A DNA stretch of 64,000 nt. Origin: Deltaproteobacteria bacterium. GTDB lineage: Bacteria; Desulfobacterota; Binatia; Binatales; Binataceae. Positions within the stretch are counted from its first letter, which is position 1. Each line of letters opens with the position of its first letter. Positions 13,320 to 15,456 of the stretch are shown in pieces. A program made the translations under genes and the position numbers. The stretch covers positions 1 through 64,000 of the forward strand of contig JAJYYI010000042.1 of NCBI GenBank assembly GCA_021801125.1. Reading direction: 5' to 3'. Under the pieces are notes generated by a model. That model ran no database searches. It saw only the letters and a list, made by a program, of their open reading frames with translations, and had not been told where the DNA came from.

Positions 13320-13835
13320 TCAGCGCGTGAGCGCGGCGATTACTTTGTCGACTGCAGCCTCGGCTTTGGCCTTCATCTCCTCATTGGTCGCATCCTGGAT
13401 TGGATGGGGGACGAAGATCCGTCGCACCTCCGGCAAGCCGAGGGCGTCGGCCTGCCTTTGCGCAGCTTCAACGAAAACGTCCGACGCCAAGAAGACCGCC
13501 GGCTTAGCGCTGGTTTCAAACCATATTGAGTCGTGCACACTGCACGTCGTGCACGACCCTCAATCGGCGAGGGCTTCGATTACGAAGTCGTTCTCCGCGG
13601 CGATAGTGCGCCTTAGCTCTTCCGGCGCGGGCTTGGTAAAAGTCGGCTTGCGGTACCGGTTGAATTTCACTTCCGGCAGCCGCTCGCTGAGCAACTCCGC
13701 GAGCCGATCCAGAAAGACGTCGCCGCGCGGTTTGCTGATATCGAGCAGAGCCACGGCGCCGTGAAGTTGTGGCGTCCGTGCGGCAAGAGTTCGTCTTACC
13801 GGCACACGCTCGTCGGTCGGATCGATTATCTCCAT
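13320..13835 (-). CDS. UGSC-family selenoprotein; in-frame UGA at 13562..13560 read as selenocysteine
   Basis: ORF 13560..13856 (MEIIDPTDERV...FVIEALAD) and ORF 13320..13538 lie in the same frame across one TGA. Joined product reads ...EALAD-U-GSCTTCSVHDSIWFETSAKPAVFLASDVF..., matching the named UGSC motif. Confidence 0.87.
13528..13559 (-). promoter_or_regulatory. Putative bacterial SECIS stem-loop immediately 3' of the UGA
   Basis: GGGTCGTGCAC-GACGTGCAGT-GTGCACGACTC: 11-bp stem with a single G-U wobble. Two further pairs can form around a G bulge, leaving apical loop GTGCA that starts with G. Confidence 0.75.
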
Positions 13836-13842
13836 GGTTTGC

Positions 13843-15456
13843 TCACACCTCCTCAATCACGCGGCTTACGCTTCGCGCGGCGGCCCTGTCGTACCATCCG
13901 GCGAAAATCGCCGTGAATTTTCCGGCTTCGCCGCCGGCGACGACAATGTTGATTCCTTCCGCCTCGCGGAACTTCGGGATGCGGCGCGCCAGATCGGCGG
14001 TTGTCGGCTCCTTGATCCCTAGGACTCCGGGCGCCGTTCCGACCGCGCACTCGGAACTCGGCAGCAGTTCGGAAAGCGGCCGAGCCGTGATCTCCTGAAT
14101 TCGTTCGCGCACCTGAGTTTTGGTCCATCCGTCGCGGGCAAATACGGCGGCGTGCTCCGGCGCGACCACGATCAGCACCTCCGGCTCGTAGTCATGCGCC
14201 TTGGGATGCCCGCAGGCCTCGAGGCCCAGACCCAGGCTTGCGGCGAGCGAGCTTGCAGTGCGCGACGTTTGATCCCAAACCTGGCGCGAGCCGGACTCGA
14301 GGGGAAAGACGGTAACCACGCTTTGCTCGGGCTTAAATCCGCGCTCCACGTGAAGCGGTTCCCACGGAGTCCGTTCTTCCCATTCCGCGAAGCAGGTCGT
14401 GTATTTGCCGGCAGAGCCTAGCGTGGTTTGCTCAACTTCGCCTGGGCGTGCTCCGCCGAGATTGCGCATCACGAGCTTCAACGCGCGCCCGATCGTGGCA
14501 TTGGCGCGGTTCCCGTACCCGAGCACCATGCGTCCCATATTCATCACGATCCTATGGCGAATCGGGCCGTTGACGACAATCACCGGTGTTGCACCCCAAG
14601 TCGTCGCCATCACGCCGTGGACGTTGAACTCGGGGGTGCATGCCGCCTCAAGGGCGGCGAGCACCACGGGCAGATATTCGGGTTTGCACCCGGCCATCAC
14701 AGCGTTCGCCGCAACCGTTTCGACGGTCGCCGGGGCCATGTTCGGCGGCACGATTGCGACCACTTCCTGCGCGTCGCGCCGCGTGCCCTTCAGCATCGCC
14801 ACCACACGCTCCGGCGTTGGGGGTATCACCGGAAGGCCGTCAGTAAGCCCACGCTCGAACATGAATTCGAACGGGTCCTCGGCCGAGCCCAACTCGATTC
14901 GGCGCGCCCGCAAGCGCGAGCCTGACGCTTCCGCTTCAAGCCGCTGCGCCGCTTGGGGCTCGAGCGACTTCGAGCCGCATCCCGCGCGCCAGGCTGGATA
15001 GCTGTTCCAATCAAGCGCCGGTTCGGCAACGCCCGCAAGCGCGGCAAATTCCTTGAACGTGCTGCGCCACTCGTCACGCACGAAGCCTTCGAGGCGGCGC
15101 AATTCGCTCCCGTCCGCTCGCACCAGGACGATCGTCGGTACGATTTCAATCGCGAAGCCGTAGGAAACCTTCAACGCCGAGTCGTCGAGCATCGGAACTT
15201 CGAGCCCGTGGCGCGCGACCAACTTAAGGTTGCCTTCGCGCTCCTGGCCGATCGCCCATATATCGGCCTTCGCACGCATCGCACGAAAGGCCGCGTCGAT
15301 CAACGGCACCGAAAGGTCGCACGTCGGGCAATCCTCCTTGACGAAGCAGAGCATCGCGGGACGCTCCCCTGGAAAGGTGCGTTGCGTTCCTGCGGCATCG
15401 GTCAAGATGAACGGAGGCAAATTGTTTGAACTTCGTTGTGTCCCCACGCCGAGCAT
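13843..15456 (-). CDS. Thioredoxin-fold (CPTC) domain fused to a large UGSC-associated domain
   Basis: MLCFVKEDCPTCDLSVPLIDAAF...IEIVPTIVLVRADG thioredoxin-like region, then FERGLTDGLPVIPPTPERVVAML...; overlaps/abuts the start of the UGSC gene. Confidence 0.75.
   Translation of the reverse strand: MLGVGTQRSSNNLPPFILTDAAGTQRTFPGERPAMLCFVKEDCPTCDLSVPLIDAAFRAMRAKADIWAIGQEREGNLKLVARHGLEVPMLDDSALKVSYGFAIEIVPTIVLVRADGSELRRLEGFVRDEWRSTFKEFAALAGVAEPALDWNSYPAWRAGCGSKSLEPQAAQRLEAEASGSRLRARRIELGSAEDPFEFMFERGLTDGLPVIPPTPERVVAMLKGTRRDAQEVVAIVPPNMAPATVETVAANAVMAGCKPEYLPVVLAALEAACTPEFNVHGVMATTWGATPVIVVNGPIRHRIVMNMGRMVLGYGNRANATIGRALKLVMRNLGGARPGEVEQTTLGSAGKYTTCFAEWEERTPWEPLHVERGFKPEQSVVTVFPLESGSRQVWDQTSRTASSLAASLGLGLEACGHPKAHDYEPEVLIVVAPEHAAVFARDGWTKTQVRERIQEITARPLSELLPSSECAVGTAPGVLGIKEPTTADLARRIPKFREAEGINIVVAGGEAGKFTAIFAGWYDRAAARSVSRVIEEV

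Follow-up and report, generated by a model that had tools for sequence, protein, structure and literature searches.

The 64,000-nucleotide stretch analysed here (the window; positions 1 to 64,000 of contig JAJYYI010000042.1, from a Deltaproteobacteria bacterium of the Binataceae) carries on its minus strand two open reading frames (ORFs) in a single frame, parted by a TGA codon (13562..13560). The locus raises the question of whether this codon ends a gene or is decoded as selenocysteine (Sec) within one longer gene (13320..13835, minus strand) for a selenoprotein of the UGSC family and, in the latter case, what such a protein might do. It is near certain that the UGA is read as Sec, as the U of UGSC, and that the gene is a genuine UGSC selenoprotein gene. 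The explanation that best accounts for the locus as a whole, and which we consider very probable, is that this selenoprotein works with a co-encoded partner as a thioredoxin-dependent Sec reductase.

Read through the TGA, the gene runs from an ATG at 13835 to a stop codon at 13322..13320 and encodes 171 amino acids plus the stop, with Sec at residue 92. The GTG at 13538 that opens the downstream ORF is preceded by the TGA and seven sense codons, in the frame of the upstream ORF, just as an earlier note on this DNA had described; the junction given there, EALAD-U-GSC-TTC, recognised as the UGSC motif, agrees with the read-through translation, and the product length of 172 residues is off by one. 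The Sec flanks read AENDFVIEALAD-U-GSCTTC. Coding character is equal on both sides of the TGA, with a codon-usage score per codon of 0.26 before and 0.23 after it, and a third-position GC content (GC3) of 0.71 and 0.72. Among TGA codons of the window that are flanked by coding signal on either side, this one ranks in the top few, and the two ranked above it are read as ordinary gene boundaries. The read-through frame is more than chance. Under translation table 11 two ORFs are called here, which would suit a rival explanation in which translation ends at the UGA, the locus is either a pseudogene or a pair of separate genes, and the read-through is an artefact.

Conservation argues against a real stop. 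The joined protein matches the NCBIfam model NF041046, ‘UGSC family (seleno)protein’, at 163.1 bits (cut-off 125, E 4.3e-48) and Pfam PF24696 at 160.2 bits (cut-off 25, E 7.1e-47), both matches spanning the UGA. As these full-model scores lie above the curated cut-offs, the protein belongs to the UGSC family; the search of the joined product that had been proposed in the earlier note thus returned a single curated family, matched end to end. An orthologue that is 86% identical is found in a genome of the same genus. The protein is conserved on either side of the UGA, and TGA is kept at the Sec codon in 80/80 related loci of a genome collection, spread, to judge by their record titles, over several phyla (Chloroflexota, Actinomycetota, Acidobacteriota, Proteobacteria and others); the sample, made up of the best 80 of 385 relatives, leans towards close homologues. 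Among the matches listed, from 57 related genomes, all but two have one TGA. One exception is a fragment lying beyond the Sec site and the other a cysteine (Cys) protein, CGSC (L133), which is the only complete Cys copy in these relatives and whose genome is without SelA and SelB. Where sense codons do occur at the Sec position in relatives, which is rare, they encode Cys, and the random sense codon that would have spoken against Sec according to the earlier note did not appear. Seven of the eight more distant plasmid homologues, haloarchaeal ones included, also carry Cys at this position. That organisms without Sec have Cys in its place is a further point against a real stop.

The host genome is equipped to decode UGA as Sec. 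Its assembly (3.5 Mb in 150 contigs, 96% complete) contains a tRNA-Sec with anticodon TCA (68.8 bits), selB (381.9 bits) and, adjoining it on the same contig (C30; L019 and L137), selD (381.8 bits), while selA is present as two complementary pieces at the ends of two contigs (model positions 1-241 and 240-444). The earlier note had proposed that the host decodes UGA as Sec and that selA, selB, selC and selD be looked for, their absence counting against it; all four were found. In selD there is an in-frame UGA at the active site (...ARCKAAG-U-AGKL...), making it a predicted selenoprotein itself, and another in-frame UGA occurs in a PrdB-like gene on contig C8 of this genome (L171), in the context ...LLVPV-U-PVCHQSVGL. 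Counting the UGSC gene, the predicted selenoproteins of this genome thus number at least three. The Sec trait tracks the UGA-type UGSC gene: SelB is found over cut-off in 38 of 39 genomes with such a gene, as against 12 of 18 others (Fisher p 0.003).

A bacterial selenoprotein gene requires a stem-loop immediately 3' of the UGA, and one is present here. A hairpin resembling a selenocysteine insertion sequence (SECIS; 13528..13559, minus strand) lies directly 3' of the UGA, with a minimum free energy (MFE) of -21.2 kcal/mol, corresponding to a z of -4.6 against dinucleotide shuffles and of -3.6 against synonymous-codon shuffles (p 0.005). When 65 distinct UGSC sequences are taken together, the post-UGA hairpin has a mean z of -1.34 against synonymous shuffles, with p <= 0.05 in 31%, as compared with z of -0.13 to -0.37, and 3-19% at p <= 0.05, for control windows elsewhere in the same 65 genes. 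At codons +6 to +8 past the UGA (TGC AGT GTG), synonymous variation is zero across 81/81 loci, as against ~0.5 to 2 bits at other invariant residues. The search pattern used here required a set third base at codon +8, and all 80 fetched loci, as well as the window, passed it, so that none was lost to the pattern. Both the Sec genes of the assembly and this hairpin, with its synonymous-site invariance, stand against the UGA being a real stop, an explanation to which we attach very little probability.

The neighbourhood of the gene bears on function. In the same operon, 7 bp upstream of UGSC, lies a partner gene (13843..15456, minus strand) encoding 537 amino acids; its end is overlapped by a GGAGGTG stretch (13845..13851, minus strand) which, from its sequence, resembles a ribosome-binding site for the ATG at 13835. 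The partner consists of an N-terminal thioredoxin (Trx) domain with a CPTC motif, giving profile and fold matches to ResA-type proteins, and a domain of ~360 residues with no match in Pfam or NCBIfam. A sequence search of the Protein Data Bank (PDB) with the partner gave matches to the Trx domain only, and the top 50 Foldseek matches were likewise all to that domain. The large domain is present in 68 of the 80 UGSC loci, ending <=300 bp upstream of UGSC in 60 of them, and in a profile search it was adjacent to or fused with UGSC in all eight plasmid homologues. In relatives L134 and L139, UGSC and a second large domain form a single chain. Two or three tandem partner large domains are found around UGSC in some Chloroflexota (L044, L049, L050, L061-L064), suggesting multi-subunit or paralogous substrate-binding parts.

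The gene order on an Arthrobacter plasmid is trxB-trxA-partner-UGSC, and trxB is also found near UGSC on Roseovarius and Variovorax plasmids. These trx operons agree with the Trx-partner fusion of the window in suggesting that thioredoxin feeds the UGSC-partner pair. UGSC is also accompanied by genes for TRAP and TTT organic-acid transporters, CoA-transferases, isocitrate lyase/PEP-mutase-like proteins and LysR regulators, a set typical of small-acid catabolism. Plasmid p2-T1 of Acidovorax sp. T1 (L178, 4923-7418) bears UGSC and the partner fused in one gene, in which the Sec codon is UGA. Its UGSC is annotated as a hypothetical protein of ~96 residues ending at the UGA, with the remainder of the gene unannotated, bearing out the expectation of the earlier note that standard gene callers would truncate such genes.

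The relationship of UGSC to GrdB and PrdB was assessed by comparing profiles with hhalign. UGSC aligned with GrdB, the latter read through its UGA, at a probability of 94.7 and a score of 59.6 over 83 columns, Sec falling on Sec, whereas the highest score among 60 column-permuted GrdB alignments was 21.7 and that of the reversed alignment 20.4. With the motif masked, the register was the same and the score 35.6. The probability depended on the GrdB set, being a merely suggestive 32 with six sequences and 79, then 95, with more diverse ones. Alignment to a PrdB-like set (score 38.1, probability 64.6) gave the same register, again Sec on Sec, and a GrdB sequence weakly matches the UGSC models themselves (E ~0.01). 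On these profile comparisons, the Sec half of UGSC appears to be homologous to the Sec domain of GrdB and PrdB. GrdB-family proteins in relatives read ILTST, then UGA, then GTxTRxG in 18/18 examined (L141-L152, L125-L130), and 21/21 PrdB-like proteins carry UGA; the tails of the latter were gathered by tblastn, a prior regular-expression search having found none.

The Pfam GRDB model stops just before the Sec, so that GrdB matches report ‘no stop inside’, and this may be why the link to UGSC went unnoticed; no paper stating it was found in the literature searched. When the window protein was compared with Pfam and NCBIfam even at E 10, only UGSC models were returned, apart from a domain of unknown function (DUF), and no GrdB or PrdB model. 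As the partner, too, is unrelated to GrdE, UGSC is best described as a relative, rather than a member, of GrdB/PrdB.

The UxxC motif and the redox partner genes nearby could also be explained if UGSC were an ordinary thiol or selenol redox protein of the thioredoxin-fold type, a peroxide or disulfide reductase with UxxC as in Trx/Prx selenoproteins, and a thioredoxin-like fold was earlier suggested for the family (PMC2398784). The AlphaFold (AF2) model of UGSC, however, which is confident (predicted local distance difference test, pLDDT, 93.3), has alternating strands and helices in a repeating beta-alpha sheet, with Sec placed between strand 3 and the next helix. Among solved structures it is matched best by flavodoxin-like proteins, with modest template-modelling (TM) scores of 0.4-0.5, and no thioredoxin occurs in the top 50 PDB structure matches. 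PDB sequence searches with UGSC and with the GrdB family found no relatives, and Foldseek of UGSC in a viral library gave weak generic alpha/beta matches. The predicted fold is thus flavodoxin-like, contrary to the published suggestion. Moreover, the UGSC profile aligns with GrdB/PrdB and not with the Trx domain of the partner, and the neighbouring genes are those of catabolism and not of stress. An ordinary thioredoxin-fold protein is accordingly an unlikely alternative to a Sec reductase acting with its partner.

Protein B of glycine reductase is the component that binds the substrate; ammonia is released by it, thioredoxin acts as the reductant, and carbon-selenium bonds are formed and broken (PMC10298544, PMC13188914). 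A GrdB-like operon has been proposed to act in C-F bond cleavage of fluoroacetate (PMC10838667). Together, the neighbours and distant relatives of UGSC suggest a reductase driven by thioredoxin and akin to those for glycine and proline. The UGA is, almost certainly, decoded as Sec by way of SelB, tRNA-Sec and the hairpin just downstream. In the mechanism proposed, UGSC would be the Sec-bearing subunit of a two-protein reductase formed with the co-encoded partner. The Sec selenolate, placed by the model at the end of a central strand of the flavodoxin-like fold, would attack the substrate, putatively an imported small carboxylate bound with the large domain of the partner, and by analogy to glycine reductase the attack would be at carbon. 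The Se-bound or selenenylsulfide form, the latter with C95 of U-x-x-C or with C98, would then be resolved; the CPTC Trx domain of the partner would regenerate the selenolate, and would itself be reduced by the thioredoxin reductase of the cell. The analysis establishes the gene, its UGA and hairpin, the Sec genes, the conservation, the operon, the fusions and the thioredoxin neighbours, while we infer the complex, the electron path, the bond cleaved and the substrate class. The GrdB/PrdB relationship would imply that the reaction cleaves an imported small carboxylate reductively at carbon, a proposal that we rate at slightly below an even chance.

Several observations weigh against this account. 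Only 31% of homologues individually exceed synonymous shuffles at the hairpin, and no model in an Rfam scan matches it. In 12 of the 80 loci the partner domain is absent from the DNA examined. Compared with GrdE and GrdB profiles, the large domain of the partner gave no signal, nor did it with the UGSC profile, and as it is unrelated to GrdE and GrdB, no counterpart is seen of the pyruvoyl-bearing subunit of those enzymes. The link to GrdB, which is drawn from profile comparison, is confined to ~85 residues at the C terminus, and the substrate is given only as an inferred class. In addition, a class-level relative, G035 (L135, L136, L172), yields a dozen UGSC matches, of which almost all contain an in-frame TGA, and this metagenome-assembled genome, although rated 100% complete, has no SelA, SelB, SelD or tRNA-Sec over cut-off; either contigs are missing or something unusual is at work.

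UGSC genes that carry UGA where Sec machinery is undetected, as in G035, are what would be seen if the codon were recoded as tryptophan or Cys instead of Sec. The genome of the window, however, has the full Sec set, long genes of the window terminate normally at TGA, and both selD and the PrdB-like gene of the same genome have UGA at classical Sec positions. Recoding to another amino acid is therefore highly improbable here, and decoding as Sec remains the preferred reading.

UGSC has been published yet is functionally unexplained, and the operon and profile evidence leads to a testable claim with a named partner, an electron donor and a reaction class. As Cys versions are found on plasmids of cultured strains, this claim can be tested without selenium machinery. 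To a specialist, the operon arrangement and the relationship to GrdB/PrdB would be new, the family itself being already known.

In a survey of aquatic metagenomes UGSC ranked with the most abundant selenoprotein families (PMC2398784), and the window gene is an additional member of this known and published family (NF041046/PF24696; PMC2398784, PMC13188914), with which it shares the full-length match, the UGSC motif and the UGA at the Sec codon; it is thus ordinary in kind. The protein itself is not set apart from the family, and the fusion of its partner to a thioredoxin domain occurs in close relatives too. A UGSC/Unknown_1 fusion selenoprotein was described in 2008, in the Global Ocean Sampling (GOS) survey (PMC2398784). 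It is resembled by L134 and L139, in which UGSC is joined to a second conserved domain, and by the eight plasmid homologues, fused or adjacent, whereas the window encodes the two parts in separate neighbouring genes, of which the second has an extra Trx domain. The large domain of the partner is likely to be Unknown_1.

GrdB (PF07355/TIGR01918) and PrdB (TIGR04483) differ from the UGSC system in that the N-terminal part of GrdB is without counterpart in UGSC and no GrdE/PrdA-like pyruvoyl subunit lies beside the UGSC gene. They resemble UGSC in the Sec-bearing C-terminal ~85 residues, with the patterns U-G-[ST]-x-T-x-C and E-x-x-G-[IV]-P, and in being nearly always Sec proteins. Tentatively, the UGSC family may be a sister branch of GrdB/PrdB, in which case UGSC would be the catalytic subunit of a reductive-cleavage enzyme that acts on small organic acids, depends on thioredoxin and, though widespread, has gone unrecognised. 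In this enzyme a new partner domain would take the place of GrdE/PrdA, and there would be Cys versions in haloarchaea and Sec-less bacteria. Such an enzyme would share with glycine reductase the use of thioredoxin as electron donor (PMC10298544, PMC13188914).
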